From positions 1 to 64,000 of the forward strand of contig CALSTX010000002.1 in the NCBI GenBank assembly GCA_943789375.1: 64,000 bases of DNA. The letters run 5' to 3'. Position numbers and translations under genes: made by a program. Positions 6,619 through 37,120 of the stretch are shown here, one piece after another (the stretch's first letter is position 1; each line of letters starts with the position of its first letter). The notes under the pieces are model-generated. The model made no database searches and was not told the DNA's origin. It saw only the letters and a list, made by a program, of their open reading frames with translations. Source of the stretch: an uncultured Opitutales bacterium (GTDB taxonomy: Bacteria > Verrucomicrobiota > Verrucomicrobiia > Opitutales > Seribacteraceae).

Positions 6619-6641
6619 TTTTATAATTGATAAGAAGACCT

Positions 6642-7721
6642 ATGAATTCACTTTTTACGAGATTCCAATTGATCAAGTATTTTCTTTTTGTAACCTCTGG
6701 CACTTTTGTCTTATGGACAGGCGATAAAGGTTCCGAAACCTTCTTTACCAGGATATGCAGGTTTTCACTCAAATCTCGGTATTCAGGAAATTGTTGAGGT
6801 TGGTGTGCCGTTGTCAAAAAAAAGAACGGTTCTTACCACTCCACCGTCTCAAGCAGTAGAGATATCTGCAGATTCTCCTGTAGTGATCGCCCCTACATCT
6901 TCCTGCATTACCGGAAGTTGCTCCTGAAACTAACCCAAAAGACTCTCTTTCTGTTACGCCTCAATTGGGCTTACGTTTCTACCGGACATCCAATGTTTTG
7001 AGGGCTGAAAGTGGAAGCGAGCAGGGTTCGAGGGTTTTTGAATCAAACATTGGTATTGGGATTTCCCGACCGGCTATGGAGCTCAGTCCTTATGTTACTT
7101 TAATTCCCCGTCTTGATTTGATGATGCAATGGGCAAATTATGGAAAATATTCTGAATTGTTGGATTATCGGTTTGGTTTGGTTAAGGGTGGGTTGGCCTT
7201 TGGCTTTTCTGATGGTTGGAGTGCAGGGGTAACTTTGGACTATAATGTACTTCATAACCAAAAGACAGGAGACCGCACTTTTGATTCCTGGTCCCCCGCA
7301 ATATCCTTGCAGAAGATTCATTCCCTCTCGGACTCCTCTTTTGTAATGGCAGATATCATGCTCAGACAATCCTCGACTGAGCAAACGGTTACCTTTCCTG
7401 CCGCCGGAGTTTTTGCAGACAGCGGAGATAATCGGCAATACACCGCCTCATTGACTTATATCAAACAACTTGGCGAAAATGGAAAATGGACCTTTATGCC
7501 AAGAATGTCATACACCCTCACTGAATACTTGAAGAGCCCGAGCACTGGCCGAGAAGATGACCGATCTGTTTTCCATCGGAGCCAGTCTTGATGTACCAGT
7601 GGACGGATTGGTTGAACGCTCAGACTTTCCTAACCAATTCTTCGATGAATCGTCTGATGCTATCCCTAGCTTCAGTGCCACTGATTTTGGCCTTTCCCTG
7701 TCGGCCAGTCATCAGTTTTAG
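6642..7721 (+). CDS. Outer-membrane beta-barrel protein, frameshifted
   Basis: Starts at ATG 6642 with a signal peptide (MNSLFTRFQLIKYFLFVTS...). Reading moves to another frame near 6700 (LSYGQAIKVPKPSLPGYAGF), again near 6910 (PALPEVAPETNP...) and again near 7565, where LFSIGASLDVPVDGL leads to ...LSLSASHQF and a TAG at 7719-7721. The body has alternating amphipathic strands (LDLMMQWANYG, GLAFGFSDGWSAGVTLDYN, QYTASLTYIKQLG), and the last residue is Phe, the usual C-terminal aromatic signal for BAM-dependent insertion. The family is not recognised. Position directly after the surface protein and FecR genes suggests a role in exporting or anchoring those proteins (inference). Three single-base lesions in 1.1 kb imply either assembly errors or a recent pseudogene. 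Confidence 0.6.
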
Positions 7722-7730
7722 GCAATTTGA

Positions 7731-9310: not shown

Positions 9311-9393
9311 GGTTAATGTAAAACCCCGAATCTTTGTTCCAAGCAATACTTAAAGGCGGAGAGAAACCTTAAAAACGATTCCCTCCGATTTTA

Positions 9394-11622
<2,229 letters not shown>

Positions 11623-11787
11623 AGTGTTAATTGGATTCGAAGTGAATTAGCTATAAAGTTTACTCTCTTGTCCTGCAATCATCTTCCCTCGTACATTTTG
11701 ATTTCCATCTTGGTTGTGATTAAAGTATTCACTTTTCCGTATAGTTTTTTAATAGAATTATTATCACGGAATTTATACTTTCCAATA

Positions 11788-12924
11788 TTGACCGAAGGGA
11801 AAAATGTTTTAAAAAGTATTCTATTGTCCTTAACCAAAAATAATCAAATTGAAGAAATATCTTCTCACTTTTGTATAGCCGGAGAGCCAGAAAGTAGTGG
11901 GCAGTTTGGAAACGGAAATGTCAATGACACCTACCTGATTACCTGCTCAGATAAGGATGGAAAAAATGTCTACACCTTGCAGCGGATTAATCATTTTGTT
12001 TTTAAAGATCCGGTTGCGTTGATGAATAATTTTGAAAGGGTAACTTCCCATTTACTTTCAAAATCGATCGAGCAAAATCATGGCAAGGATGTTCTGACTC
12101 TTATCCCTACGCGCGATGGTAAATCTTTTCACCTGGATGTGGATGGCCATTATTGGCGTATGACCAAATTTATTGCGGGCGGGAAATCTTTTGATGTGCC
12201 CGAGCATGATGGTCATGCCTTTGAGGCAGCCAAGGCATTTGGTCAATTTCAGGCAAATTTAAATGATTTGGGAGAGCCTGCTTTGGTTGAGACTATCCCC
12301 GCTTTTCACAATACAAGAAAGAGGTTTGACCGTTTCACTGAAATGGTTAGCCGTAATCCCAAAAACCGCTTGAATGAAGTTGAGGATTTGGTGGAATTAT
12401 TTTTGAAACATGAGAAATTAGCAGATGCTATCAAAAGACCTGAATTTCCCAGACGAGTCGTTCATAATGATACCAAGTTAAATAATGTGTTGCTTCATCA
12501 GACAACTGGCAAAGCAATATGTGTGGTAGACCTTGATACAGTGATGCCCGGTTGCGCTCTTCATGACTTTGGGGATTTGGTCCGGACGGCAGCAAATGCC
12601 GCGGACGAGGATGAGACTGACCTTAGCAAGGTACAGTTTTTGCCTTCCCGATTTGAGGCGATTATGGATGGTTACTTGTTAGGGTGCCAGGGAATGCTGA
12701 TAGAAAAAGAAATCAAAAAATTAGCCATCGCTCCGATTGCGATTACTTATGAGTTGGCCCTGCGCTTTCTGACCGATTTTTTAGAAGGAGATCTATATTT
12801 TAAAACCCACCGGGAAGGTCACAATATAGAACGAGCCAAATCGCAATTTACACTGATGAAGTCTATGCTAACATTTAGGGAAGAAATGGAAGAGCTTATC
12901 CGAACTAAACGGGATCTTTTTTAA
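11788..12924 (+). CDS. Aminoglycoside-phosphotransferase-fold sugar kinase, NahK-like
   Basis: Kinase of the APH/choline-kinase fold resembling N-acetylhexosamine 1-kinase, which phosphorylates GlcNAc/GalNAc at C1 with ATP. Supporting segments: nucleotide-binding FGNGNVNDTYLI, the catalytic loop HNDTKLNNVLL, and the Mg-binding VVDLDTVMPG followed by HDFGDLVR. The open frame extends upstream to 11563, overlapping icd, but that extension has no homologous character. The likely start is TTG 11788 or TTG 11824; no in-frame ATG exists near the conserved N-terminus, so the start is uncertain. About 165 bp separate it from the divergent icd. Amino-sugar salvage is inferred from family resemblance; the exact substrate is not determinable here. 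Confidence 0.75.
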   Translation: MTEGKNVLKSILLSLTKNNQIEEISSHFCIAGEPESSGQFGNGNVNDTYLITCSDKDGKNVYTLQRINHFVFKDPVALMNNFERVTSHLLSKSIEQNHGKDVLTLIPTRDGKSFHLDVDGHYWRMTKFIAGGKSFDVPEHDGHAFEAAKAFGQFQANLNDLGEPALVETIPAFHNTRKRFDRFTEMVSRNPKNRLNEVEDLVELFLKHEKLADAIKRPEFPRRVVHNDTKLNNVLLHQTTGKAICVVDLDTVMPGCALHDFGDLVRTAANAADEDETDLSKVQFLPSRFEAIMDGYLLGCQGMLIEKEIKKLAIAPIAITYELALRFLTDFLEGDLYFKTHREGHNIERAKSQFTLMKSMLTFREEMEELIRTKRDLF

Positions 12925-12930
12925 TCTTTT

Positions 12931-13147
12931 CTAAGATAGGAAAAATTCTGTGGGTAGCACCCAATCGTCTCCATTCCATTTGATGCCGTACTGGCTCTCC
13001 AGAGCCCTAAGCTTTTTTTTGCCTACGATCATATAGTTACATGTCATAAGGAATCCGTTCACCCTTAGTATTTTCAAAAAACCAAATCTCCGTATTCCCT
13101 TTATCTAACTCAGTTGGATTGTTATCTGTGTGTTGATTGTTGGTCAT
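12931..13147 (-). CDS. Small hypothetical protein, one frameshift
   Basis: Reads MTNNQHTDNNPTELDKGNTE then IWFFENTKGERIPYDM to a stop at 13037. One base further the coherent sequence continues as YMIVGKKKLRALESQYGI and KWNGDDWVLPTEFFLS, with a stop at 12931-12933. Inserting one base near 13035 joins both into a protein of about 70 residues. The second half cannot be chance noise with confidence, but its Trp/charged composition resembles a folded small domain. ATG 13147 is chosen as the start; an ATG at 13249 directly abutting the porin stop codon would add 34 residues. Function unknown; no motif recognised. Confidence 0.4.
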
Positions 13148-13249
13148 GAGAAATTCAGAATTATTTTGGATATATTGTTCAGTTAATATTATCCTTAGCT
13201 TACTTTTTTCATAAAAAGCCAAATTAAGTCTAATATTAAATGGGAACAT

Positions 13250-14492
13250 TTACCAAAACCAAAGCCGAATACTTGAAGCTACCGTCCAACCACGAAACTG
13301 AGTTTCACCCTCTGACTTAAGTTCATCATGTTGGATACCACTAATAAGCTTAAGCTTTTCGCCGCATGAATAGTAATTTAGCCCAAGGTAGAAAGCTTGT
13401 TGTTCATCACCCCGACCATTATTTAAATCAATGCTGTTATCTCGTCTGTCCGAAAGGGGAATGTAACGGCTGTTTAATTTGAGTCCCTCTGGCTGGTCGG
13501 CTTGTTGATATAAATATCTTGCTACTATCTTTAGTTTTTTATCGTTAATCCAATACATCGGCATAAGCACAACGCCACTAAAAGATCCTTCTCGGTTAGG
13601 TGTCGCCTGTTCTCCATTGTCTCCCCACGCAACCGTGCTGTGTAGTGCCCAAGGACCATTGCCGATTCGATTTACCAAGGATAATGCCCATTCATTTCCA
13701 CCAGCCAGCCGTTCCACAGTACTCGCCCCGTCTTGTTTGTAGTAGGAAAGCCAATATTCGAGAAGTTCATAAGAGCTTCCTTTCGAGTAGTCTTCAAGCC
13801 AAGAGCCATAATAAGTTGTACTGTCTTACCAGCCCCCGATGTAATCATCATAAGTTCCAGAAAAGATAGCGGTGCCCAAGCTGTGCTTTCCAACAGTCCA
13901 CTTCACCCATGCCGCTAATGGATTTCCTTTTTCCCTGTCGTAAAGCCATAATTTATTTGAGAAGGAAGAGCGTTCCAGGCAATTAATCAGGGTCGATGAC
14001 CGTTGCCATTCATCCGCCATCCGTCCCGTTCGTCGACCATAGCCAAAGCTCATTGAGTCAATGCCTTCCCATTCCCAAAACTGATCGGCATCAAAGGTGA
14101 TATTGGCGGCCCGGAAAGTTTCATGTCCCCACTGTCTGTAATCATGAGGGTAGGCATTGCGGTCATTGGAGATTTGGCTGACTACTTTAAACTTCCAATA
14201 GTTGGCAAATTTTCCTGTCACTCCAACCGAGACCCGCCGGTATTCTTCAAATGAATCATCAAAGGCTTTCCCTGTCTTATCCGTACCATCAATATGTCCA
14301 ACTTGATGTTGGTAGGAGAGGAAAAGCTTTGTGCTTTGAAGACCTCGGGACTCTTGGTTCTCATAAAATTTACCTAAGTCATTGAGCTTTTCACAAAATG
14401 TGCTGGTAGTTTGGCCAACAAGGGAGGGAAGGAAAATAAAAAAGTAATAAGATAAAAATCAAATATCGCTCAAGCCCTTGCCTCAGGATCAT
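13250..14492 (-). CDS. Outer-membrane porin-like beta-barrel protein, frameshifted
   Basis: Signal peptide from ATG 14492 (MILRQGLERYLIFILLLFYF; ATG 14510 is also possible). A frame change near 14415 leads into SLVGQTTSTFCEKLNDLGKF and then a long porin-like body with strands such as YWKFKVVSQISND, FRAANITFDAD and MSFGYGRRTGRM. A second frame change near 13828 continues as STTYYGSWLEDYSKGSSYEL. The C-terminal half has FYLGLNYYSCGEKLKLISGI and ends WTVASSIRLWFW, an aromatic C-terminus expected for a BAM substrate. The pattern resembles phosphate-selective-porin O/P-like barrels of gram-negative bacteria; substrate cannot be inferred. The FG-GAP repeat gene lies immediately upstream on the same strand. 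Confidence 0.6.
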
Positions 14493-14538
14493 TAATAATG
14501 TGCAAGACATTGCCTTGCAGTGCAGGGGAGGCTAGCGA

Positions 14539-15636
14539 CTAACCAAGTTGGTGAGGAATAAAGGTTTCAGAACCTTTGTTTTCAATCCAAGTTCGGTGGT
14601 CGGATGTTGAGGAAGCACCGACAATATCAAGATCATTGTCATTGTCTAAATCAGCCACTTCAATTTGGTCAACCTCCGTAAGTCCTGTCGCAATCGTGCT
14701 TGCCGGGATAAATCCATCGGAGCCATCATTTTTCATCCAACCAACGAGTGAAGATGAATCCGATGAGTATACCAGATCATTTTTACCATCAGCATCAAGA
14801 TCTGCAATTTCAAGATCAGAAATCCCAGAAACATTGGTATTGAGGTTTTGAACGCTAAATCCTTCAGTGCCTTGACTAGTCGCAAAACCAACTAAAGTGG
14901 ATCCAGGAGATGAGTAATAAATATCGTCCTGGCCATCTTCGTCGAAGTCATCTACTTCCAAGGCATCAACGCCACTGAGACCACTAGAAATTGGACTTTG
15001 GACCGTAAAGCCTTCTGTTCCATTATTTTTAGCCCAGCCCACCGCATTAGGGGTTGAGTAAACAATATCGTTTTCACCATCACTGTTTATATCTGACAGG
15101 AAAGCTTGATTTACTTCAGAGCCGAAAGAAGAGGCATTTAGAGGAGCAAAGTTTTCAGAGCCATTGTTATCAATAACCTGCACTGCACCAGTGGATTGAT
15201 CGATTACCACAATATCTTTATCTCCGTCTTGATCGACATCCGCAACCGCAACAAGATCTGTGTCAAAATTAGGAGAGTGCAGTAATTCTCTAGAAAAATT
15301 TAAACCTGTATTTCGAAGAAGGTACAATTTACCGCTTTGCTCATCTGCATCTAGGATGTCAACATCTCCGTCTTGATCGATATCAAAAGGGACAGAAGAT
15401 TTGAGTTCGACTGCTTGCTCGGCCTTGAGACTTTCAGGGCTACTAATTAAAGCCAAAAGAGGCATACCGCATAAAATTGCGAGTTTAGTAAGTTTAATTA
15501 AAGCGTCAGAAAGTAGATTTAAGAGGAATTTTTGGAAACTTAAAGAATGTTTTTTTCTTCTGTAAGCTCCCAATACAAAAATCAAGCACTTTAAGTACTT
15601 GTCCTTGGTTTCATTTATTACTTTTTGTGAAGGCAT
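14539..15636 (-). CDS. FG-GAP/VCBS repeat protein, secreted
   Basis: 365 residues. A basic, hydrophobic N-terminal region (LTKLAILCGMPLLALISS at about 49-66) is probably a signal peptide. Six Ca-binding repeats of the DxDxDGxxDI type follow: DIDQDGDVDILDAD, DVDQDGDKDIVVID, DINSDGENDIVYS, DFDEDGQDDIYYSS, DLDADGKNDLVYSS and DLDNDNDLDIVGAS, spaced about 45 residues. This is the pattern of FG-GAP/VCBS beta-propeller blades, usually found in extracellular adhesive or enzyme-associated proteins. The frame is intact. It is divergent from the giant glycosyltransferase (111-bp gap) and could be an exported substrate of that locus (inference only). Confidence 0.8.
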   Translation of the reverse strand: MPSQKVINETKDKYLKCLIFVLGAYRRKKHSLSFQKFLLNLLSDALIKLTKLAILCGMPLLALISSPESLKAEQAVELKSSVPFDIDQDGDVDILDADEQSGKLYLLRNTGLNFSRELLHSPNFDTDLVAVADVDQDGDKDIVVIDQSTGAVQVIDNNGSENFAPLNASSFGSEVNQAFLSDINSDGENDIVYSTPNAVGWAKNNGTEGFTVQSPISSGLSGVDALEVDDFDEDGQDDIYYSSPGSTLVGFATSQGTEGFSVQNLNTNVSGISDLEIADLDADGKNDLVYSSDSSSLVGWMKNDGSDGFIPASTIATGLTEVDQIEVADLDNDNDLDIVGASSTSDHRTWIENKGSETFIPHQLG

Positions 15637-15747
15637 TGTTTAATAAAAAAATAATAAGGGACGAGAGTCAAGACATCGATTTTATTTTCGAACGATCTTT
15701 GGTTGTAAAACAATCAGGGTCTTAGTAAGCATGTAATCTTTTACACA

Positions 15748-18700
15748 ATGAAAATGAAAATTTGTATCATTACATCAGTCCGTAATTGTCTTACAGAGAC
15801 CAAGGCTTACTTGGATTCTTTACGGCAACATGCTCCGAGTAACTTGGATCAAGTAATTATGATTGATGATGGAAGTGACAAAGAAACCCAAGAGTTTTTA
15901 CATTCGCAACGATCTTCATTTGATTTGTATCGGAATTCGACAAGTAAGGGTTTTGCTTTTTCCAATAATCTTGGAGCTGCCAAAGCAAACGCAGAATGGC
16001 TGCTTTTTTTAAATAATGACTTGGTCCTACAAAAAAATTGGTCTGTTGGGTATGACTGTGTAGTAGAAGGAAACCAAAAACTTGCCAATATTGGGTGTGT
16101 TGGAAATGTACAACTGGATCCGTTTTCAGGGAAAATTGATCACGCCGGTGTTATTTTTAGTAACGGTATACCGGAGCATTTTCTTAAGGGTGAAAAACTT
16201 TCTCCCCAAAGTGGTTACACAGAGTTTCTTGCAGTAACCGGAGCATGTTTCATGATTCGCCGGGATTTATTTCTGGCAGCTGGAGGGTTTGACGAAACTT
16301 ACAAAACTGGCTTCGAAGATATCGATCTTTGTTTAAGGTTATCGATGTTAGGCCACAAGAATTATGTGCTGAACTCAAGCATTGTGCTGCATAAAAGAAG
16401 TAGCACCCCGGAGAGAAACCAGCATCAGGACCATAACTCAAGAGTTTTTTACAGTAGGTGGGGCCGGGTTATTACCCGTTTCCAGGAATGGGAAGTTGCT
16501 CAAAGAAAACAGGAAGTAAGTAAAAGAAATTTACCGAAAGAATATGATTATGTTTTAAAGAAGAAAGAAAACTTTCTTTTTTCGGATAAGAAAATATTGC
16601 ATGAATATTTCTCTATTTTCCTTCATCAAAGAAATTTAAAATTTGCAAAGCATATTCTTTCAATTCTTATGGAAAAGTTTGGTCATGAAGAGCAAACGCA
16701 GATAAAATTAGCCCGATTCCATGGTGCTTCCGGGGAATTAAAACAAGCCAAGGCAACCCTTTCCGATGTACTGCACGAAAACCCTCGCCAGCTTGAAGCC
16801 TCTCTACTCAAGCAAAAGCTTTGCTGCCGAGAAGGTGATATCAAATCGGCTCTTAGCATCCTTAGGGAAACCAAGGGATATCACCCTGCATCTGCCCGAG
16901 TTTATCTTGCCATAAGCAAGTGCTTGCAGGAGAGCACTAAGTGGAAGGAAGCAGAAAAAAATGCCAGAGTATCAACCTTGCTTGATTCTAGTTTTAAACC
17001 CGGGTGGAGAGCTCTATCATTCATTTTCCGGAAACAAGGGAAAATAAAAGATGAAGTTCAGGTTCTTCAAGTTCTACTTCAACAAGACCCCAGAGACTCA
17101 AAAGTTCTTGACCAATTAATTACTGCACTTGCCTCCCTTCATTCGAATAGAAAAATTTGGTTATTATGTAAGCAGTATGAAGGAAAGATTTTTTCTGCGA
17201 GTAGCGTGATGCACGGTGCCCATGCTTGTTATGAAATAGGAGATTTTAAAAGATCTGTACACTTTGTAGAAAAGTTACTGGATGGCGATCCTGCCAATGC
17301 AAATGCATTAATGCTTAGAGGAAATATTGCGGTTGCCGGTAAACAGTTTGCAAAGGCAATTGCAGATTATGAAAAAGTCTTAGAGATTATGCCTAATTCT
17401 TTGGAGGCATTAAGTAACCTTTCAAATTCAAAATCTTTTCTTTGCGATTGGGCAGATCGAGAAACTGAAGTTAATCAATTGAATACTGTAAGTAAAAAGG
17501 CTCCCGGTAAATTAGGACTCTTTGAGGTTTCTGGTTTGCAACTTGATGAGGCGAGTGAATTTCATAATGCTTTGGCAAAATCAAAGATATTTAATACTCG
17601 AGTGAAATTGCTTCGAGAAAAGCTAATGTTTTACATATTCTCAAAACGAGAATGTTCGAAAAAAGGTTGGTTTTTTATCTTCCGACTTCCGAAATCATGC
17701 GGTTGGCCATCAATTCATTGGACTGCTGAATAATCTAGGCTCTGAAAAATATGAAATATTTCTTTTTGCATCCAATCCCAGTGAGGATAGCGACATTAGA
17801 AGGAGATATGAGGATCTTGGTGATAACTTTCAGGATATTAGTGGATTGTCCTTAACGGGTAAAGCAATTGCCATAAACCAAGCTAATTTAGATTTACTGA
17901 TCGATCTGGGTGGGTTTTCAAGAGGGCATAACGCAGAGCTCTTAGCTCTACGACCTTCTCCCCGCCAAGCCCATTTTTTGGGCTATGCATCAACGATGGG
18001 AAAAGACCTTGTCGATTACATGATCGCAGACCGAGTCGTCATTCCTTCGAGTTCATCCAAGTTCTATGGGGAGCAAGTGATTCGCATGGATGGCTGCTTT
18101 TTCCCACCGGGCGAATTTCAGGGATTTGCTTCACGGGTAAAACGTAAAGATGCCGGTCTTCCCCCAAGAGGATTTGTTTTTTGTGCTTTCCATGCGGCCT
18201 ACAAGTTGGATCCTGAAATTTGGGCGAGTTGGATGCGGATTCTTCGGGCTGTGCCTGAAAGTATTTTATGGCTAAAGTGTAAACCAGCTGTTGAGGCTCT
18301 TATAAACTTAAAAGCGGAAGCAGTCAGGCAAGGCGTGTCCTCCAAGAGAATTATCATGGCAGAGGATTTGCCTGACCGCGCTGCTCATTTATCAAGAATG
18401 ACGGTTGCTGATCTTTACTTGGATTGCCCTTTATACAATGGACACGCCAGTGCTATGGATGCATTACATGCAAAATTACCGATCCTTACTCTTGAAGGGA
18501 AGCGATTTTGCAGTCGGGTAGGGGAGTCCTTGATGAAACATTTTGGCTTGCCGGAAATGGTTACTAAAAACCTTGAGCAATATGAACGAAAAGCCATCGA
18601 ACTAGGCAAAAGACCATCGAAGTTGCTGCCGTTGCGAAAAAAGATTTCTAAAAATGCGGATGCGGTACTTTCACCGGCAGTCCATGCAGAAAGATTTCAA

Positions 18701-21334
18701 ACTACGATCGAAGCCATTTTGACCAAGAAGCCAAAAGCCCAAAAAATTCCGCAAGGGAAAAAGTCGAAAGCTTCAATGAAACTATCCAGGACTTCTTCGC
18801 TTAAAGATTTTACACTGGTTATGATTCGCCCAAAGAGAATCACCAACTGGGCTTACAATGTAAATATGCTCGCCCAAGAATTGCGAAAAGAAGGTGGGCA
18901 AACAATCATAATCGAACCAGCGCATGCGGAGCATAAAAGATCTGACTTTTCCAGCTTTGTAAAACGGGTACCCCAGCTTGGGCAAAGTTATGCCGAGATA
19001 TTAAATTTTGCCCTTAGTAAAGTCTCCACGAAATATGCATTTTATCTAGATGACCCTCTGCGTACTTTACCTGCCAGTCATTTTATTGAATGTTTGACTC
19101 AAAGTATAAAAACCTTGCAGGACTCCAAAATTGGCTTTCTGGGAGTTGGTTCAAAAATGGAGCCCAATACTGGAGTGTTGGTGACAACTACCAAGGATTC
19201 TTCTGGGGCATCAAAAGTAGCTGGTCTTTTTGCCCCCTTCTTTGCCCTTAGTATGGATGCTTTAATTTACACAGGAGGCTTTCGTCCGTATGATAAATCA
19301 CTCGCATTATCTTGTTTAGATTTGTCTTTGAGAATGGAGCAGCAAGGAGATCGAAGTGCGTTGGTGGAACTGGATAAAATCACCTGCCCTGCTTACACAG
19401 GTAATGACTATTTAAAATCTGCTGGTGAAAAAATGCTTTCCCATTTCAGAGAGCGATGGAATCGCAAACCTGTTTCCTTAAAACCTAAATACCCAGCCAA
19501 AGAAGAGCAGGTAGGAGAGACCGCAGATTATCAGGAATGGATAAGGCTGTGCGATACCATTACCAAGGGTGACATACTTGCATTTAGGGCGGAGGCAGAC
19601 AAACTTCAAAACACGCCTTTGATTTCAGTGATTATGCCAGTCTTCGATCCTCCGAAGAAGTTTTTGGTAAAGGCCATTGAATCTGTCCTAACCCAAGCCT
19701 ATGAAAATTGGGAACTTTGTATCGCAGACGATGCTTCGAAAAAAAAATATATCCGTCCCTTACTCGAGACTTATGCCCGCAAGGATTCTCGAATCAAGGT
19801 CACATTCAGAAAAACCAATGGTCGCATTTCGGTGGCTTCCAATTCGGCATTAAAATTAGCAACGGGTGAGTTTGTTGCTTTTTTGGATCATGACGATGAA
19901 CTGCGTCCCCATTCACTGCTCGAAGTTGCGAAAGTAATAAATCGTAATCCGAATGCTCAATTGATTTATTCAGACGAAGACAATGTGGATGAGCAAGGCG
20001 GGAGATATAACCCATACTTCAAGCCCGATTGGAATCCTGACTTATTATTGGGGCAAAACTACATTTGTCATCTCAGCACATTTAAAACTTTACTGGTTAA
20101 GGAACTTAAAGGACTGAGGAAAGGTTTCGAAGGAGCCCAGGATTGGGATTTGATCTTACGTATCACTGAAAAACTATCCAAGGAATCGATCATTCATATC
20201 CCTAAAATTCTTTATCATTGGAGAGCAATTAAAGGTTCTACCGCTCTTGGAGTATGCAAAAGAAAAATATTTTTGAAGCTACAGCTCTCACCATTAACCA
20301 AGCCTTAGAAAGACGAGGGTTGAATGCAAGTTTAAGTTTTCCTGATAGAAGGTACAACTATCCTAAGATCGGCTTCAAAATCGATAAAAGGCAAAATCCC
20401 AAAGTATCGATTCTAATTCCTACCAAAGACCGAGTAGATTTGATGAAGAAATGTCTCTCATCGATTCTAAAAAATATTTCATACGATAATTATGAAGTCA
20501 TTATTATAGACAACGAAAGCGTGGAGAGCCAAAGCATCAGTTTTTTCTCATCTATCAAAAAAGACAGAAGAGTCTCTGTAATTCGGGTGGAAGGTGATTT
20601 TAATTATTCAAGACTAAATAATATAGCTGCATCCAAGGCAAATGGTGAAATCTTACTCCTTCTAAATAATGATATCGAAAGCATTAAAGTTGGTTGGTTT
20701 GAAGAAATGCTCGTTCATGCACTGCGTCCTGAAATTGGATGTGTCGGAGCCAAGTTGTTATATCCGGATGGTAGGTTGCAGCACGGAGGAGTCATTGTCG
20801 GATTAGGTGGGGGTGCGGGGCATTCGCATAAATATGCTCAAGGAGGAAGTCTGGGTTACGCTGGTCAACTCTCAGTTGCCCGCAATTCAACGGCTGTGAC
20901 TGCCGCTTGCATTATGGTTCGGAAACAGGTCTTACATGGCTGCAGGCGGACTTGATGAGTCGCACCTGAAGGTAGCCTTTAATGATGTCGATTTTTGCCT
21001 GCGAGTAGAAAAAATTGGATACCTTAATTTCTGGACTCCTTTTGCTGAACTATATCACCATGAATCAGCATCTCGTGGGAGTGATGAAGCAACAACTCAA
21101 AAGAAAAAAAGATCAAGCAGAGAAATTCTAGGATTGAGAAATAGGTGGAATCTCAGATCTTTCAGCGATAACAACTATAATTCAAACCTAACCAACTGGT
21201 CAGAGCAATTTTGGTTTGGAATAAGTAAAAAATCTTCTGCATATCCTGCAGATTTGGAGGATTTTAAAATGGTTGAAGAAATCGATGATACAGCCAATTC
21301 TAAAAGCAAAAATTCCAGACGGATCACTTCATAA
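15748..21334 (+). CDS. Giant multi-domain glycosyltransferase: GT2-TPR-GT41-GT2-GT2, frameshifted
   Basis: About 1,850 residues if the frames are joined. Domains: GT2 (15755-16450; IDDGSD, FLNNDL, GFEDIDLCLR); a TPR helical array (about 16620-17560); a GT41/SPINDLY-type O-GlcNAc transferase catalytic domain (about 17650-18740; VGFLSSDFRNHAVGHQFIG, LVDLGG-equivalent LIDLGGFSRGHNAEL, YNGHASAMDALHAKLPIL); a degenerate GT2-like stretch (18790-19480); GT2 (19610-20250; ISVIMPVFDPP, FLDHDDELRP); and GT2 (20390-21080; VSILIPTKDRVD, LLLNNDIE, FNDVDFCLRV). Frame changes lie near 17650, 20250 and 20938; the last is an extra T (VRKQVYMAAGGLDES when removed). It would transfer several sugars, at least one possibly O-GlcNAc-like onto protein. 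Acceptor and sugars are unknown. No signal peptide, so cytoplasmic. Confidence 0.75.
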
Positions 21335-22927
21335 AAGAAATGCTTCTTCAAGCTTAGGCAAAAAACTAGTAAAGCAAGGGCACCTAAAATTAGAATCGGG
21401 TTTGAGGTGCAATAAGGAAAAAAAGATCCCCCTAATATTTCCTCTGCTAAAGAAGCAATTCCAGGGGCGATGGAGGGAATACTTTTACGATTGTATGCCT
21501 CAGAATGCAGATAATCTGCACGGCGTGGTTGAAACGGAGAATATCTCTAAGCATGAGTATGACGGTCATGCAATGAACATTATCAATACAGTCGGTGGAA
21601 ATGGGATGATTTTGGACTGTGGATCAGGACAACGTCCCACTTACTACTCGAATGTTGTGAATTTTGATCCTGTTGCATATGGTAGTACGGATGTAGTTGG
21701 TGTTGGTGAGCATCTTCCCTTCAATGATATCAGTTTTGATGCAGTTTTTTCACTAAATGTTTTGGAACATGTTCGCGATCCATTTGCTTGTGCAAAAGAA
21801 ATCATAAGAGTTTTAAAGCCAGGTGGACAGCTTTACTGCGTAGCACCTTTATTGACCCCCCTTATCATGGCTATCCCGATCATTATTACAACATGACAAA
21901 GGCAGGTTTACGAAACTTGTTTGAGGAAAATTTAGTTATTAAAAAGCAAGATGTTTCTGGATAGCGGTCATCCTATTTATTCTTTAAACTTGGATTTTAA
22001 ATAGTTGGATTCAAGGGCTGAAACCTAACGCCAAAAAAGCTTTTCTTAGAACTTCGGTAAGTGAGTTACTAGGAGATCCTGCATCATATTTTGATAAAGC
22101 GTATGTAAATAGTTTGAATCTTGAAAAGAAATTTGAATTGGGAGCCACTACTGCGCTATGGGCTGAGAAAAAAAATAGTGATATGGCTTGTTCGGGTGAT
22201 CTGTTTCTTCAGATTAGAAGTAAGGTTTATCAAACCCTTTCAGGTAAAGGGCTCGAAATCGGAGCTTTTGAACACCCCGCTGAATTGCCAAGTTCATGTG
22301 AAGTGAAATACTTTGATAGAATTTCTACTGATCAGGCTAGAGAGTTCTTTTCCCTGAAATATCGCATAAGAAATTACCAAAGGTTGATATAATAGGAGAC
22401 TTAGATGAGAAGGGCTTAGTCCAAATACCAAGCGAAAGCTTTCGAATTTGTAATTATGAATCATGTTCTAGAGCATTTGTTCGATCCCATTCAGGCAATA
22501 AATGAAAGTCTAAGAATTCTCAAGCCCGGGGGGTCTTTGGTTATGTCTGTGCCGGATAAGCGGTTCACCTTTGATCTTGAACGAAAATTAACCAAATGGG
22601 ACTTACTTCTAAAGAGATACCAAAAAGAGGTAAAAAAGCCTGAGTTGGAAAACTACGAGGAAATTTATCAAGGTTCATCCGAACTTAAAGGGTAAAACTC
22701 TATCTAAAAAGGAAAAAATTTCTTTCCTGAAAGAATGTACCGAAAGACGGGAGCATTTGAATGTGTGGGATTCCACTAATTTCAAGAAATTTCTAACGAG
22801 AACACTCAAATTCATAGAAGTTGAGGTTAATTTTGAAAAAGAGGTGTCTGGAGATGAATCACACTTCGAATATCTCGTGCATCTCAAGAAGATCGCTTTC
22901 TCGTGCCCCAACCTTAATTTAACATAA
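21273..22927 (+). CDS. Tandem SAM-dependent methyltransferase protein, heavily frameshifted
   Basis: Two class I methyltransferase domains read in pieces. The first (about 21360-21990) has ILDCGSGQRPTYYSNVVNFD (SAM-binding motif I), FNDISFDAVFSLNVLEHVRD and VLKPGGQLYCVAP. The second (about 22200-22927) has KGLEIGAFEHPAELPSSCEV, FVIMNHVLEHLFDPIQAIN and ILKPGGSLVMSVPDKRFTFD, ending ...AFSCPNLNLT before TAA 22925-22927. Frame changes occur near 21852, 21962, 21990, 22340, 22440 and 22670. The start is placed at TTG 21273, which overlaps the glycosyltransferase end by 62 bp; because a frame change is also possible there, it might instead be the C-terminal part of that protein. A role in methylating glycans made by the neighbouring enzyme is inferred. 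Confidence 0.6.
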
Positions 22928-22940
22928 TTTCAAATCTTCT

Positions 22941-23557
22941 TTGGAGATTTTTAGTCTTCATGTTCCAAAGACGGGTGGAACTTCCTTCAGGAAATGCCTA
23001 ATGGAAATTTATGGAAGATAGCTTTTATTCCTCACTACCCAGAATTAGGACAAACAAGGCAGCGAATCACTCGATGCTTTGATAGATGGGTAAAGTGCGT
23101 TCATGGGCATCTCATCTTGGATCGTTACCAAGAGCTTTGCGAAGGTGCAGACATTGTGACTTGGTTGCGAAATCCCGTAGACCGAACTCTTTCGCTATAT
23201 CATCACATTTTATCGAATCCGGATTCTAGTAATGAATTTCATCAAAGAGTTTACAGGCAAAAACCTTCAATTATTGAATTTTGTGAAATGCCAGAAAACC
23301 AAAATCAATTATTTTATTGGATCGGAGATCGAAATCCCGAAGATTTCAAATTTATCGGTTTTTTGGAAACTGCACAGGCATCAATTGTCAAATGTGCTGC
23401 CGCCTTAGGATGGTCTTATGTACCCCAATTTCCTTGGGACAATAAAACTAAAAAAAGAGATCAGCTGAAGGTTTCTAGTAAGGATCGAGAATTCATCAAA
23501 GCGAAAAATCAGGGCGAGATGAGTTGGATTGAGAATGCGAAAAAATTATTTGGGTAG
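22941..23557 (+). CDS. Sulfotransferase family protein, one frameshift
   Basis: N-terminal FSLHVPKTGGTSFRKCLMEI contains the PAPS 5'-phosphosulfate-binding loop (VPKTGGTSFR) typical of carbohydrate sulfotransferases. One frame change near 23010 leads into KIAFIPHYPELGQTRQRI. The second family motif, VTWLRNPVDRTLSLYHHIL (3'-phosphate-binding RNPVDR.LS.Y), lies at about 23157-23213. It would move sulfate from PAPS to a sugar hydroxyl, so it fits the glycan-decoration locus and is mirrored by a sulfatase encoded 3 bp downstream on the other strand. The start is uncertain; TTG 22941 is the best in-frame candidate and no ATG is available before the PAPS loop. Confidence 0.7.
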
Positions 23558-23560
23558 TGT

Positions 23561-24910
23561 TTATTCCTTACCAAGGTGATAGTCAAAATATTCTACCCAA
23601 AGTTCAGGTAATTCTCCATTTTTAAGGCCAGGAGGATTTAATCCTTGGGCCCAATTCAAAAGCTTTTTCTCAAGATCCACTGATACCAAAGGGAATTGGT
23701 GAATCAGGTTCTCTCTTTCCGAAAGATCTTCCTCAAGATTGAACAGGTATTCCCTATCTTCACATTTTAGGAACTTCCATTTACCCGCTCTAATCGCAGC
23801 CTGAGCGATCCATCGCCAGCAAAGGAATGCATGAGGTGGTCCCTCCTTCTCACCTCGAAGATAAGGAAGCAAATTAATCCCATCTAGACCTTCTTTCTCG
23901 ATTCCAACCTGTTCAAGAATAGTTGGTGCGATGTCCAAGGAAGTGACAGGATGATCATAGGATGACCCAGGTGGGATTTTGCCTGGCCAACTGATGGCAA
24001 AGGGGACCCGTATTCCGCCTTCGGTCAACATCCCTTTCTCTCCGTTAAGTGGTGCGTTATAAGATCCATTCCATCCCAATGCAGGATGAGTGGCGTTCTT
24101 CGCTTCAAGTTTCAAGGGAGCTCCGTTGTCGCTGAGATAAAAGATACAGGTTTCCTTAGTTAAATTAAGTCTACGCAACTCTTCCTGAATCAATCCTATT
24201 CCATCATCGATGGCAGCAAACATACCCAAAGCTTGCCTGCGAGCCTCTGGTAATTTTTTAGGGAACCTATCGGAATATTTATGTGGTGCATCAAGAGGTA
24301 CATGAGGAGCACGTAACGACAAAAAAAGAAGGAAAGGTGCTTGAGCAAATTCCCTAATGAATGTGACCGCAGTTTCGGAACAGCCTTCAATGTGATACTT
24401 GGAAGAGTTTATTTTCTGATTGTCAGTAAGAGCACCTTGATCCGAGAAATTTGCCCAGAAAGGAGCTGTGGAAATATGGTTATAAAAAAAACGGAAACCA
24501 TGGTCTGGAATTTCCTTTGGCGGGCCCAAATGCCATTTTCCAATTAGTGCACTAGTATACCCTTTATCCGAAAGTAACTCTGCAATATTCTGCTTTTCCG
24601 CAAACCTTTCTAGTGAATCGCCGTTTTTTTCTATTTCAAGTTTGTTTTGTACTTTACCTAAAAGTAAACCCGCTCTTGTAGGAACGCATTGGGGTGCACT
24701 CGTGTAAGCGTTGGTGAAATTAGCTCCAGCCCGAACCAGTTTATCAAGGTTCGGAGTTTGAAGGTTGCTGTTTGGGGAGTTGGCCGAAAAATCTGCCCAC
24801 CCTTGGTCATCAGTTAGGATAATTATGAAATTTGGCTTTTCGGGGGGTGCTCCTAAGAGCATCGCATTCTTGAAAAGAAGAAAGAATATGACTGCAAAGA
24901 ATCGATACAT
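23561..24910 (-). CDS. Sulfatase (S1 family)
   Basis: 449 residues, intact. Signal peptide (MYRFFAVIFFLLFKNAMLLG), the metal-binding ILTDDQGWADF, the formylglycine signature CVPTR in PQCVPTRAGLLLGK, GKWHLG, and FYLSDNGAP. All are hallmarks of type I sulfatases matured by formylglycine-generating enzyme from Cys. It acts in the periplasm or outside the cell on sulfated carbohydrate, with the specific substrate unknown. It is convergent with the sulfotransferase gene (3-bp gap), so one pair of adjacent genes adds sulfate and the other removes it. ATG 24910 is directly before the signal peptide. Confidence 0.9.
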   Translation of the reverse strand: MYRFFAVIFFLLFKNAMLLGAPPEKPNFIIILTDDQGWADFSANSPNSNLQTPNLDKLVRAGANFTNAYTSAPQCVPTRAGLLLGKVQNKLEIEKNGDSLERFAEKQNIAELLSDKGYTSALIGKWHLGPPKEIPDHGFRFFYNHISTAPFWANFSDQGALTDNQKINSSKYHIEGCSETAVTFIREFAQAPFLLFLSLRAPHVPLDAPHKYSDRFPKKLPEARRQALGMFAAIDDGIGLIQEELRRLNLTKETCIFYLSDNGAPLKLEAKNATHPALGWNGSYNAPLNGEKGMLTEGGIRVPFAISWPGKIPPGSSYDHPVTSLDIAPTILEQVGIEKEGLDGINLLPYLRGEKEGPPHAFLCWRWIAQAAIRAGKWKFLKCEDREYLFNLEEDLSERENLIHQFPLVSVDLEKKLLNWAQGLNPPGLKNGELPELWVEYFDYHLGKE

Positions 24911-24940
24911 GAAAGCTTAATTCATGAGAGTTGTTATTGC

Positions 24941-26263
24941 TTAAACATGTATGACGCCGAGCCCAAATCCCTCTTGATGGGATTCCGTTTTGTAATTTTT
25001 TGAAATTTCTTTCCAGAATTCTTTTACGCCAAAGTCTTCTCTTTCTACCAAAATGTCATGAAGGAGAATCATTCCACCTTTTTTAATTTTGGGGAGCCAG
25101 TTCCCAAAATCGTTTCGCACACTCTGATACTCATGGCTCCCGTCGATGTGAAGGAGATCAATAGAGGAAGTTTCAAATGATTTTAGGGCTTCTGTGAAAT
25201 CTATCCTCAGGAAAGTTGAGTTTTGGGAATGAAACTCTTGGTTGTATTCATTGACCTCCTGAAAAACATCATCTCCATAAAACCCTGCTTGCTTGTCTCC
25301 TTGCCAATGATCAACGCCATAAAGTTGGGTATTGAGTTCGAGTTCATCGCAGGCTTGGCAGAAAGTGAAATACGAATCACCGTAATGAACACCAAGTTCT
25401 ACTATAATTTCTGGTCTAAATTTCTTAACTAAGTTGTAGGCAAAGTCTCGATGAGGGTGCCAAGAAGTTATTGTGGACTCAAATCGAGGGCAAAAACTAG
25501 ATGGAAGTTGGGATTTTAGCTGCTTAATTGGGGCTAGAACAGAAAGGCATTCCTTTTTTTGTTTTGTAGTAATTATATGATCTTTTAATCGAGGGAAACT
25601 AAAAAGATGGAATATGTCATGAAACAATTGATCCATGTTATTTTGAATAATAGGTTCCATTTCCGTTAGAATCATTTGGACAGACTTTTCAACATCACAA
25701 CTGTCATAAGGACCGGTCAATTCAAGGTTGTGCACCCCCAGTTTTTGGTCGTAGGAGATAGTCATTCCATAGAGGGGCACTTTCGCCAGCTTTGCCAACC
25801 TGGCAGGGGCTGTTTGTAGTAAAATGTCATTGTATAAAAATGTAAAAGGATGAAATTTATGCTTCTTCCCTATCTCAGCAACGTCAAGAGCAGCTCCAAC
25901 GAAACTGCCTTTTTTTAGGGAAGCAAGTATTTCAGAGGATTTTGTATGGTTAGAGAGAAACATTTTTTCGGAGTACAACCGGTTCGAAATTTTGTGTACC
26001 TCCTTCCAGAACTTACTTTCCTCTCTATCCATTACCTTAAAGTTCTCAGTCGAAGCAATGGCAGTGTATTTTATTCCGAGTTGAGCAATTAATGAAACTC
26101 CCGAGAGAAAAAAACTTCCAAAGTGTAAAAATAAGAAAACTCCACCCTTTGATTTATCTAGTTTAGTTGCTCCTGTAATCGATACATGATGGGTTGCATA
26201 TTCCTTGCTGTAGCAAGCAAATTCTTCACGCATGAAAGTTGAAAAATTAAAAGGTTTAGTCAT
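24941..26263 (-). CDS. LpxL-like acyltransferase domain fused to class I SAM methyltransferase
   Basis: Residues about 1-235 resemble the lysophospholipid/LpxL-type acyltransferase fold: GGVFLFLHFGSFFLSGVSLI, KKGSFVGAALDV and TAPARLAKLAKVPLYGMTIS. The catalytic HX4(D/E) of that family is here H-F-G-S-F-F, so the acidic residue is missing. Residues about 270-440 are a methyltransferase of the Methyltransf_24 type: IIVELGVHYGDSYF (motif I), YGVDHWQGDKQAGF, SIDLLHIDGSHEYQSVRNDF and GGMILLHDI. The start is ATG 26263; a GTG at 26311 would add 16 residues. It sits at the edge of the glycan locus. The fusion suggests a cytoplasmic enzyme or scaffold acting on a lipid-linked or glycan substrate (inference). 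Confidence 0.7.
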   Translation of the reverse strand: MTKPFNFSTFMREEFACYSKEYATHHVSITGATKLDKSKGGVFLFLHFGSFFLSGVSLIAQLGIKYTAIASTENFKVMDREESKFWKEVHKISNRLYSEKMFLSNHTKSSEILASLKKGSFVGAALDVAEIGKKHKFHPFTFLYNDILLQTAPARLAKLAKVPLYGMTISYDQKLGVHNLELTGPYDSCDVEKSVQMILTEMEPIIQNNMDQLFHDIFHLFSFPRLKDHIITTKQKKECLSVLAPIKQLKSQLPSSFCPRFESTITSWHPHRDFAYNLVKKFRPEIIVELGVHYGDSYFTFCQACDELELNTQLYGVDHWQGDKQAGFYGDDVFQEVNEYNQEFHSQNSTFLRIDFTEALKSFETSSIDLLHIDGSHEYQSVRNDFGNWLPKIKKGGMILLHDILVEREDFGVKEFWKEISKNYKTESHQEGFGLGVIHV

Positions 26264-26494
26264 GAAAGATAAATTTTTAAAAGTTTTATTCGGAAATAAA
26301 AAAATGCACACTATTTTCTAATCCTGCAAATGGTGAATATTTAAATCTTTAAGAGACATTTTGACGGGTGTTTTACATTTAATTTCACAATTTGTGTATA
26401 CTGTGGCTTTTTAACTAAGTTCACAATGGTAACAGATATAGTTGCTTGAAAAGAAAGAAAAGTTGATACATTCCATATTGTTATTGAAATTGCA

Positions 26495-29365
26495 ATGAAA
26501 CTAAGGATGATTGCCTCTATGTTAAGGATTTCTTTGTTTGCGACGCTAGCATTATTCACTGCTTTTAAGATTTTTTCGAGTCAAGCACCTACAGGAATTC
26601 TATTTTCCTCAAGTATTGCAAATGCTTCCAATATTTCTTCTACGAAGTCATTAAACTTGGTTGATCTTGATGGAGATGGAGACCTCGATCTTTTATCGGA
26701 AACATCATCAGGAGAATTCTTTTTAGATGCCAACCTGGATGGTGCTTTTTCAACATCACAAAAGCTTTACCCGCAGGGTGAAACCATCATTAAGATTTTC
26801 AACCCGGAAGAAAGTATAGGCGTTTTCCATGCCTACGATCCTGATGACCCCACATCCCAAGGGAGTTATGATTTTGAACTCGTAACTGGAACCGGTGATA
26901 TCTCTAACGATCATTTCAATCTTTCTTCCAATGGTGATCTCGAAACCAATGCCAACCTTCCTGCGGGAGAATATTCCTTGCGGGTTCGTGTTACTGATTC
27001 CACCGGTTTGTTTTTAGAGCGATCATTCAAAATCCTCAAGGAAGACGAACTGCATGGTCTCGTGCTGACCCCTTATATCCCGCTAAGCATTTCACCCCCC
27101 GGATATCAAAGTTCCAACTTGAGCGGAACGGAATCTATGTTCTTGGTAGATTTGGATAAAGATGGAGATTTAGATCTGATTGCTGAAGACCTGGTTGGTC
27201 GCTTCTTCCTAAATCACAATCATATGGGAAGCTTTTCAAGAAATTTACTGTTGTTCCCTAACCCGACAATCTCATTTGAAATAAATGCCACAATTGGCTC
27301 TTCTATTGCTTCAGCTTTGGCAATCGCATCCGACAATCTTGATTCCTCCCCAAAGACTTCTTTCGCATTAACGAATGATACTGCTTATCCCGATAATCAA
27401 TACTTCACCATCAATTCTGATGGTACGCTTCTACTTCAAGGGGCCCCATCACCAGGTATGCTATTGATTAAGATTCAAGCAACGAATAGTGCAGGTCAGT
27501 CTGTATCTTCCATCTTTAAGCTAGAAGCATTGGAACCTGAGAGATTCGCCCCGTCATTAATAAAGATCACCAATGCATCCATAGTGGAGAATTCAAGTGT
27601 GGGAACCATTGTCGGGAAATTACAGGCTGAGGATCCCAATCCTGGGGCAACTCATGTTTTTTCCCTCGTGGATACAGATAGGAATTTTGAAGTTTCTGAA
27701 ACGGGCGAGGTCACATCCCTGAAGGTTTTTGATTATGAATACCAGGGGAAATACACAATATGGGTAAAAGCTACGAATCAATATGGTAAATCTATTGAGC
27801 AGGATATCGAAATCGATATTGCCGATGTAAAGGAAGACTTTGATCAGGACGGTATAGAAGATCACATCGATACGGATGACGATAATGATGGATTTACAGA
27901 CCTTCAGGAAACAGAACTTGGTAAAGACCCATTTAATCTCAAAGACTTCCCTCAATTTCCACCTAGTGGAATTTTAATTAGCGTTAAAACTGTGGAAGAA
28001 AATAAACTCATTGGATCAGTGATTGGATACCTGGAGGCTTCAGGTTTGAATATTGGAGTTTCTCACGATTTTAAATTAATTTTGGAAGCAGAAAATACTT
28101 TACCTATCAAAGTAGAAACCAACGGAAGTCTTGTGATCTCTGACCTCATTGATTACGAGAAACGAGAGTTGTTATCTTTTAAAGTCCGTGCAACCAATGA
28201 ATTTGGGCTTTATTTGGATCAGGATTTTGAAATTGAAGTCTTAGATGTGGATGAAGTGAAGAGAGCGATGCCCCGAACTTCTCATGTCTCCGTTTTACCT
28301 GATGGGAAAGTTGAATTGTATGGAGAATTACTGTCGGATGGGAATAGTGATGAGGTGGAAACTGGGTTTTTGATTGGTTCAAGATTGTCGCTGTCTATTG
28401 AAGATCCTGCTACGACCAAATTAACTGCCACTTTTGATCCTGCAATGTCTACATTTACTTATTCCTACGAGCCCCAAGTTACTGGGAAAATGTATTTCAG
28501 AAGTTATGCCTTAAATGAAAAAGGCTTAGTTTTGGGGTCAGTTCGAAGGTTTAGCGTGGAAAAACAGCCCAGTTACGAGGAAGAGCAGTATGGTATCTGG
28601 GGTGGTTTCCTTGATCCTGAAAATGGTTGGCTTGTATCTGATTGGTTCGGGGCAGTGAAAGTCTATCCAAATGGATGGATTTTTCATCATGAGCTGGGTT
28701 GGATTTTCTCTTCAAAAGCATCCAATGGGGTTTGGTTATGGCGGGAGCAAAATGGTTGGCTTTGGACGGGAGAAGGAATCTTTCCTTTCTTCTATAAAAA
28801 TCAGGTGCAGAACTGGCTGTACTATTTTGCCGGAGGTAATGAAAATCGTTATTTTTATGATTACCATCTGGAAACCCTATTTGATTACAACGCCGTTCAT
28901 TATGAAGTTTCTTCAACGGAGGAGGTTTCTGATGCAATCCTTACCACCCAGACAGGTAAGGTTGTGGTTGAGGAAATAGGAGGGAGCTATCGTTACAAAA
29001 ACCTCGATGGCACCACCACCTGGACTGTTTTACAAAATGAAACTGGTGGATGGCAGATAAGAACAGGGTTTCATGAAAATGGACAAACATACGGTACAGA
29101 GGGAGCCTTTGAGAAACTTCCTGATGCCGATTACATGGTACATGGTTATGAAATTGATGGAGATGGAGTTTATATTTATCAATACAAGTGGTTAGATGAT
29201 ATTTACTCTACATACTACAAAATAGAATCTGTAGAAAATGGCGTAGTGACTTCCAATTACGGACCATCTAGAGACCAGTTATCTAGACAAAGTTACTTTT
29301 TTACTGATAAGGCTACAGCTGAAGAATTTTATAAATCCAAGCATCAACTGGTGGAGTCTAACTAG
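26495..29365 (+). CDS. Modular surface protein with cadherin-like domains and Trp-rich C-terminal module
   Basis: 956 residues, intact. Signal peptide (MIASMLRISLFATLALFTAF). FG-GAP/VCBS-like Ca sites at about 56-66 (LVDLDGDGDLDLL) and 215-226 (LVDLDKDGDLDLI), each followed by cadherin-like stretches; a cadherin-like domain at about 355-445 (NASIVENSSVGTIVGKLQAE); a TSP3 segment at 447-476 (DFDQDGIEDHIDTDDDNDGF); another cadherin-like domain at about 488-585; an FN3-like domain at about 590-690; then a Trp-rich module at about 697-800 (GWIFHHELGWIFSS, GVWLWREQNGWLWTGEG). The last three elements match the end of the protein at 1-4356. A further C-terminal 150 residues are unlike anything I recognise. 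Probably exported and surface-attached. Confidence 0.85.
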   Translation: MKLRMIASMLRISLFATLALFTAFKIFSSQAPTGILFSSSIANASNISSTKSLNLVDLDGDGDLDLLSETSSGEFFLDANLDGAFSTSQKLYPQGETIIKIFNPEESIGVFHAYDPDDPTSQGSYDFELVTGTGDISNDHFNLSSNGDLETNANLPAGEYSLRVRVTDSTGLFLERSFKILKEDELHGLVLTPYIPLSISPPGYQSSNLSGTESMFLVDLDKDGDLDLIAEDLVGRFFLNHNHMGSFSRNLLLFPNPTISFEINATIGSSIASALAIASDNLDSSPKTSFALTNDTAYPDNQYFTINSDGTLLLQGAPSPGMLLIKIQATNSAGQSVSSIFKLEALEPERFAPSLIKITNASIVENSSVGTIVGKLQAEDPNPGATHVFSLVDTDRNFEVSETGEVTSLKVFDYEYQGKYTIWVKATNQYGKSIEQDIEIDIADVKEDFDQDGIEDHIDTDDDNDGFTDLQETELGKDPFNLKDFPQFPPSGILISVKTVEENKLIGSVIGYLEASGLNIGVSHDFKLILEAENTLPIKVETNGSLVISDLIDYEKRELLSFKVRATNEFGLYLDQDFEIEVLDVDEVKRAMPRTSHVSVLPDGKVELYGELLSDGNSDEVETGFLIGSRLSLSIEDPATTKLTATFDPAMSTFTYSYEPQVTGKMYFRSYALNEKGLVLGSVRRFSVEKQPSYEEEQYGIWGGFLDPENGWLVSDWFGAVKVYPNGWIFHHELGWIFSSKASNGVWLWREQNGWLWTGEGIFPFFYKNQVQNWLYYFAGGNENRYFYDYHLETLFDYNAVHYEVSSTEEVSDAILTTQTGKVVVEEIGGSYRYKNLDGTTTWTVLQNETGGWQIRTGFHENGQTYGTEGAFEKLPDADYMVHGYEIDGDGVYIYQYKWLDDIYSTYYKIESVENGVVTSNYGPSRDQLSRQSYFFTDKATAEEFYKSKHQLVESN

Positions 29366-29405
29366 TTTGCCTGAACACAAACATTTATGTTACTAGAGAA
29401 AATTA

Positions 29406-29678: not shown

Positions 29679-29711
29679 GCTTATAGTGTAGTGAAGGAAA
29701 ACGAGAATTGC

Positions 29712-31511: not shown

Positions 31512-31548
31512 TCCGAAGAATCTAAGAATCTTAAATTGATGGCAAGGA

Positions 31549-37115: not shown

Positions 37116-37120
37116 AAAAA

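Follow-up and report, generated by a model that had tools for sequence, protein, structure and literature searches.

A GT2-TPR-GT41 glycosyltransferase fusion paired with an FG-GAP repeat protein on a genomic island of an uncultured Opitutales bacterium

Positions 1 to 64,000 of the forward strand of contig CALSTX010000002.1, from an uncultured Opitutales bacterium (assembly GCA_943789375.1), make up the whole stretch of DNA analyzed here, which we call the window. At 15748 to 21334 it holds a gene that joins three GT2 domains, a TPR array and an OGT/SPINDLY-type GT41 domain, and that lies head-to-head with a gene for an FG-GAP repeat protein on a genomic island. This arrangement suggests a large, soluble, cytoplasmic protein glycosyltransferase whose GT41 domain would initiate a glycan on the exported FG-GAP protein and whose GT2 domains would extend it, a reading to which we assign a probability of roughly one half. 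Among the matches listed in our literature searches, no title or abstract opening described a GT2-TPR-GT41 fusion. New here are the island location, the FG-GAP partner with the same distribution as the enzyme and an apparently independent GT2-TPR-GT41 protein encoded beside an FG-GAP gene in Nostoc.

Results

The comparisons drew on 42 genomes of the family, among them the window genome and two others of the same genus, G023 and G037; these three are the only ones with a GT41 match and are termed carriers. The glycosyltransferase gene and its domains are as follows.

15748–21334, plus strand: multi-domain glycosyltransferase gene, in four frames here and read in open frames by relatives
15748–16497, plus strand: N-terminal GT2 domain (PF00535), with DDGS, NND and EDID motifs common to all three carriers in an alignment
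16645–17421, plus strand: TPR array (Pfam TPR models, residues 300–558; helical repeats in the G037 protein model)
17630–18733, plus strand: GT41 domain of OGT/SPINDLY type (PF13844; PDB alignments; fold of the G037 protein)
18800–19498, plus strand: possible degenerate GT2-like domain, weakly indicated, some 230 residues long and separating GT41 from the GT2 that follows
19625–20253, plus strand: GT2, first half of a double GT2 (PF00535; 78% identity to G037 contig C33 over 19718–20266)
20254–21080, plus strand: GT2, second half of the double GT2 (PF00535 at 20407–20760; frame-broken near 20940)

The order GT2, TPR, GT41, possible GT2-like domain, GT2, GT2 bears out the sequence-only reading of this region, which had described three GT2 domains combined with TPRs and GT41. 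The open reading frame (ORF) at 15748–17733 contains a GT2 domain (PF00535, E 1.5e-11) as well as numerous matches to TPR models, that at 17630–20308 a GT41 (PF13844, E 1.2e-66) and a GT2 domain (E 1.3e-25), and that at 20254–20955 a further GT2 domain (E 2.5e-15); the ORF at 20936–21334, searched on its own, had no Pfam match. PF00535 matches at 15763–16272, 19625–20038 and 20407–20760 place three domains in GT2, and PF13844 matches both halves of the GT41 domain (17630–18106 and 18140–18655). The GT2 motifs were aligned for the N-terminal domain, and those of the other two were read by eye. PDB profile matches of the N-terminal GT2 include chondroitin synthase, GalNAc-T2 and GmaR (the last at E 0.00082).

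The GT41 piece aligns with XcOGT (E 5.9e-58) and human OGT (E 2.2e-56), and the catalytic residues line up in both alignments: His23, Lys192 and Asp277 of the piece correspond to XcOGT His218, Lys388 and the aspartate of the NAHTTASD motif, which we take to have roles in OGT catalysis. In a model of the G037 protein (pLDDT 71.7, pTM 0.51, nine sequences in the alignment), a TPR superhelix is predicted to join a GT-B domain, and Foldseek matched the TPR and GT41 part to 2vsn_A (TM 0.85) and 2jlb_A (TM 0.82; by target length), an XcOGT-like fold. Sequence and modeled fold thus both agree with the earlier assignment of an OGT-like GT41 with its TPR superhelix. The HMW1C subfamily is not indicated: at E 0.001 the PDB gave 19 matching sequences and none is HMW1C, their names being OGT, XcOGT, O-glycosyltransferase, SPINDLY and TPR_2 repeat protein (5djs), and Pfam finds TPR models in place of the HMW1C-type AAD domain. 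A fourth GT2-like domain, degenerate in form, may occupy 18800–19498. This segment had no Pfam match at the 0.01 cut-off (best, PF13712 at E 0.019), aligned colinearly with the first GT2 in hhalign at E 0.077 with a probability of just 0.7%, and gave a poor structure model (pLDDT 45.5).

Relatives carry the evidence that the region encodes one polypeptide. In the window the gene runs through frames 1, 2, 1 and 2, with breaks near 17630, 20260 and 20940, and the assembly offers separate ORFs with possible starts, as neighboring genes without any fusion would. G023, however, reads GT2-TPR-GT41 in one frame of 912 residues up to a contig end inside GT41, and on G037 contig C13 a single frame of 1106 residues covers GT2, TPR, GT41 and the beginning of the GT2-like domain, again up to the contig end. 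These single ORFs span the first window break without loss in an unbroken alignment, residue 642 of the G037 protein falling at window position 17631/17630. A second G037 contig, C33, begins inside the GT2 that matches window 19625–20253 (77–78% identity) and encodes GT2-GT2-GT4 as a single frame, 945 residues long. Because C13 bears genes of the window's left flank and C33, further along, genes of its right flank (matches at 29763–31427 and 32152–32814), the contig gap in G037 falls inside the glycosyltransferase gene. The open frames support a single polypeptide from 15748 to 21334, as the earlier reading held, though no one contig has the whole gene. That reading would have suffered had related genomes encoded GT41 and GT2 as separate proteins; none was seen within the genus, and stand-alone GT41 proteins are ordinary in other families. 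We regard separate genes as very improbable.

The frame breaks themselves are best read as patches of sequence error, because rpoB of the same genome is broken too, PF00562 matching it as two abutting pieces in different frames. Recent decay of the window copy into a pseudogene, with real frame breaks, is a live but unlikely alternative. It would account for three breaks in 5.6 kb, with more seen by eye in the next 1.6 kb, a density above that of the other genes tested. A frame switch occurred in 3 of 20 alignments of relatives' ORFs to the window genome, two of the three being copies of this gene; with the gene excluded the figure is 1 of 18 (16 distinct genes), to which rpoB adds another case, and between relatives it is 0 of 9. 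Weighing against decay, rpoB is essential and yet broken, and the protein is still 49–78% identical to its relatives past the first two breaks (G037 aligns with the second half of the double GT2 over 20398–20928 at 49%); past the third there is just a short 36% match. A sulfatase gene at 7850–8777 also resembles sequence error: relative to the intact 534-residue gene of G032 it has eight additions of one base, one of two bases, and a single-base gap. This gene is itself probably a sequence-error patch or a decayed gene. It alone was used from a blastn list of 44 frame-shifting gaps relative to G032, and mixed-size gap clusters at 6679–6910, 37806–38536 and 42042–42626 were taken as alignment artifacts. 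ORF coverage over 176 kb of the window genome (0.895) lies within the range of the relatives (0.88–0.94), so that frame breakage across the genome appears mild and patchy.

The candidate acceptor is the divergent neighbor of the glycosyltransferase gene.

14539–15636, minus strand: FG-GAP repeat protein, 365 residues (PF13517, E 1.3e-26)

The two genes lie head-to-head in all three carriers. Orthologues of the FG-GAP protein were found in G023 (E 4e-122) and G037 (E 5e-76) and in none of the 39 non-carriers, the next best match of the 42 genomes (5e-16) lying inside a 3165-residue frame. The gene linkage and the distribution shared with a protein read by eye as exported are those of an adhesin-glycosyltransferase pair. 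By rpoC the nearest relative is G032 (98% identity), which has neither gene, and the carriers G023 (94%, a partial match) and G037 (92%) are more distant; the pair has therefore been gained or lost together. Both the window and G023 proteins have a hydrophobic stretch about 50 residues from the start, and the FG-GAP protein is probably exported by a signal with a long leader, read by eye. From the putative starts, this leader is reminiscent of the extended signal of HMW1. As a separate matter, G[ST][DE]xF, considered as an acceptor motif, occurs 5, 4 and 10 times in the three linked FG-GAP proteins and not at all in the longest ORFs of six other FG-GAP loci; we do not count it, as the three linked proteins are homologous and the Nostoc partner described below has no copy. 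A seventh locus, L154, was dropped from this count, its longest ORF not being the FG-GAP one.

The pair lies on a genomic island with the following further features.

14443–29420: genomic island, without a match at the corresponding site of G032, the nearest relative (blastn), and with a GC content of 0.39–0.44
21273–21896, plus strand: methyltransferase fragment (PF08241, E 4.3e-14), directly downstream in a third frame, part of the fusion or separate
22938–23557, plus strand: sulfotransferase-like gene, frame-broken, also represented in the G037 island (tblastn with L115:9293–11269)
24941–26311, minus strand: acyltransferase-like and Methyltransf_24 protein (PF13578, PF03279)
26495–29365, plus strand: cadherin-type protein (PF00028)

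Blastn of the window against G032 contig C60 gave blocks at 6142–13087, 13241–14442, 29421–39257 and 39278–42896 at 82–91% identity, those flanking the island standing at 90.5% (13241–14442) and 84% (29421–39257). In place of the island G032 has about 1 kb with a presumably DoxX-like gene. The site is empty in three of the four non-carriers examined (G032, G017 and G021), G018 being uninformative. In G023 and G037 the DoxX-like gene is present, and beyond it lie the FG-GAP and glycosyltransferase genes, with one further ORF between in G037; the DoxX-like ORFs of both genomes have no match in the window, where the gene therefore seems to have been lost. In 2-kb bins the GC content of the island is 0.39–0.44, mostly 0.39–0.41 with 0.435 at 18–20 kb, against 0.416 in the adjoining left bin, 0.44–0.53 farther left and 0.43–0.47 to the right. 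We name the 22938–23557 gene sulfotransferase-like on the assumption that its HVPKTGGTS motif marks such an enzyme; 22994–23557 had no Pfam match. The Methyltransf_24 part of the 24941–26311 protein has a counterpart in the G037 island (60.8% by tblastn), and that island also holds GT4 genes and, at L115:5056–8213, an MBOAT acyltransferase followed by a 561-residue protein without a Pfam match, which together may acetylate the island's glycan. The cadherin-type protein matched none of the ORFs compared from G037 and G023. It is for this reason a weaker acceptor candidate, and of the two neighbors earlier suggested as acceptors it is the FG-GAP protein whose case is strengthened, through its co-occurrence with the enzyme and similar pairs in other phyla.

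These neighbors bear on whether the protein instead makes a surface polysaccharide or lipid-linked glycan, with GT41 recruited as a saccharide-directed transferase. The methyltransferases and sulfotransferase-like gene of the island, and the GT4s and MBOAT of G037, would suit such a product, and multi-glycosyltransferase proteins do take part in making surface glycan chains. The S-layer glycan enzyme WsaE likewise has two glycosyltransferase domains in one soluble, chain-building protein; it differs in having a methyltransferase where the window protein has TPR and GT41, and its chain is ABC-exported and then moved to protein (PMC2943079). However, no flippase, polymerase or ABC exporter was recognized among the island ORFs scanned, the catalytic positions of OGT and its TPR fold are preserved with the GT41 domain, and the pairing with the FG-GAP gene is strict. 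We consider a polysaccharide or lipid-linked product unlikely, and return to protein glycosylation below.

GT41 fusions were sought beyond the family by tblastn of the window GT41-GT2 piece against 72,556 plasmid records. Of these, 658 matched, and in no record did a single location cover 80% of the query. The top record, plasmid p057_H of Nostoc sp. C057, encodes WP_179076668.1, 1512 residues of order DUF4915-GNAT-GT2-TPR-GT41; the adjoining gene, for a protein with FG-GAP, cadherin and RTX parts, is followed by cysC, which would fit sulfation. Since the Nostoc GT2 matches the window GT2 at 19625–20253 and not the N-terminal one, the similar layout appears convergent, and such fusions would have arisen more than once. 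In Acaryochloris sp. 'Moss Beach' a 1892-residue DUF4915-GT41-TPR-GT41 protein is encoded divergently from a giant protein annotated as FG-GAP-like, and at three further cyanobacterial plasmid loci DUF4915 genes without GT41 in Pfam have an adjoining FG-GAP protein (one small gene intervenes in Nostoc C052). An FG-GAP neighbor was thus seen at all five DUF4915 loci inspected (L207, L208, L209, L210 and L211), six such loci being among the matches listed. Plasmid GT41 loci without DUF4915 had an annotated FG-GAP neighbor in none of four cases, one stretch being ended by the record end. One of these, L214 on a Pseudomonas plasmid, has a gene of TPR-GT41 type immediately after that of a giant protein in which the ALTTAQ repeat matches 70 times, possibly another acceptor pair.

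Among 37 loci from genomes outside the genus (36 with a GT41 ORF, 543 kb), an FG-GAP ORF lay within about 1.5 kb of the GT41 ORF in three (L067, L069 and L072), compared with no FG-GAP ORF in 317 kb of control stretches from family genomes; as the controls come from other organisms, the comparison is only indicative. Counted with custom GT2, GT4 and GT41 profiles only, 136 GT41-bearing ORFs reduced to 115 after duplicate removal: 100 with GT41 alone, 10 with tandem GT41 and 5 mixed, 3 of them the genus carriers, a count that may miss fusions because many loci ended 1.5 kb from the match. Other fusions include GT2-TPR-GT4-GT41 in G053, of the same order (1447 residues), and GT41-GT4 in G103. 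Two long proteins, of Magnetococcales (L061, 2550 residues) and Rhodoferax (L088, 2687 residues), each have four GT41 domains in one frame.

Discussion

How might a single chain build a glycan on a protein? We propose that the TPR superhelix would capture the acceptor, for which the exported FG-GAP protein of the head-to-head gene is the likeliest candidate, that the GT41 domain would put the first sugar on Ser/Thr, and that the GT2 domains, with GT4 as well in G037, would lengthen the glycan on the same polypeptide. The glycoprotein would then leave the cytoplasm via its own signal sequence, and its glycan may be capped by the methyltransferases and the sulfotransferase-like enzyme encoded nearby. 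We infer this acceptor, the linkage, the sugars, the order of action and the timing before export from the XcOGT-like fold, the aligned catalytic residues, the hydrophobic stretch of the FG-GAP protein and two precedents. In FlmG, the TPR part binds and selects the acceptor (PMC7591256), and HMW1C, a GT41 enzyme, glycosylates its genetic neighbor HMW1 before export, while that protein, which carries an extended signal sequence, is still in the cytoplasm (PMC3983070).

The acceptor could instead be flagellin, which we judge unlikely. Both GT2-TPR and TPR-GT-B proteins are known or predicted flagellin glycosyltransferases: FlmG glycosylates flagellins (PMC7591256), and GT2 with TPR repeats was used to predict such enzymes in a Clostridium strain (PMC13317340). 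GmaR, moreover, is among the PDB matches of the first GT2, and in G023 a flagellin-like gene ends 4.7 kb upstream (Flagellin_N E 3.2e-5, below the cut-off). However, flagellin matches occur in 41 of the 42 family genomes and the GT41 fusion in just three; in the window genome both such matches fall on contigs 5 and 14 rather than on contig 2; and none was recognized by eye among the ORFs in the first 20 kb of G037 C13. GmaR and the predicted Clostridium enzymes resemble the window protein in joining GT2 to TPR repeats, with flagellin as their acceptor; to our knowledge, GT41 is not part of GT2-TPR flagellin glycosyltransferases. Independently of this question, Flagellin_N paralogues are expanded in many of the family genomes, with up to 33 matches per genome and some frames of about 1000 residues. 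An 854-residue flagellin-like protein of G023 (L008:447–3011) carries an insert similar to the C-type-lectin region of the protein encoded at window 178–2202 (39% to window 799–1026).

With the FG-GAP protein as the preferred acceptor, the system can be set beside known ones. XcOGT, human OGT and FlmG share with the window protein a TPR superhelix and GT-B domain, and the first two are its best sequence and fold matches, with catalytic positions kept; unlike OGT/SPINDLY types and FlmG, its GT41 is embedded between GT2 modules, with the possible degenerate GT2-like domain behind. HMW1C resembles it in that a GT41 gene lies beside that of an exported acceptor (here a candidate) and in glycosylation before export (here proposed), but HMW1C possesses an AAD fold where the window protein has TPRs, attaches one or two hexoses by N-linkage, and partners a two-partner secretion adhesin rather than an FG-GAP protein. 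Nostoc WP_179076668.1, annotated as a TIGR03032 family protein, shares GT2-TPR-GT41 in one protein and an adjoining FG-GAP gene; it differs in its DUF4915 and GNAT domains in front, the lack of a double GT2 behind and its GT2 subtype.

Several observations weigh against this interpretation. The Nostoc GT2 is of another subtype than the N-terminal GT2 of the window, and the common layout appears convergent. GT41 without an FG-GAP neighbor is common (four of four plasmid loci without DUF4915 and 34 of 37 genome loci). The FG-GAP leaders are only loosely alike, and export was judged by eye. The intact gene is present on no single contig, the scan of the islands took in a selection of their larger ORFs, and the G037 island contains a gap. 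Just three carriers are known; two are about 60% complete and certain non-carriers are incomplete as well, so that some of the absences may not be real.

For many of the OGT-like GT41 enzymes of bacteria no substrate is known, and lipid carriers are used to assemble many of the longer glycans found on bacterial proteins. We speculate, at odds well short of even, that the fusion represents a protein O-glycan assembly line free of lipid carriers, in which one chain combines OGT-type initiation with several elongating transferases, is inherited with its own FG-GAP acceptor on a patchily distributed island and was assembled independently in Verrucomicrobiota and Cyanobacteriota. If the protein glycosylation reading is true, acceptor, initiating and elongating enzyme would lie in one cassette, making TPR acceptor choice and carrier-free elongation testable with two genes, and a testable role would follow for the exported FG-GAP proteins that other phyla encode next to GT41 and DUF4915 genes.

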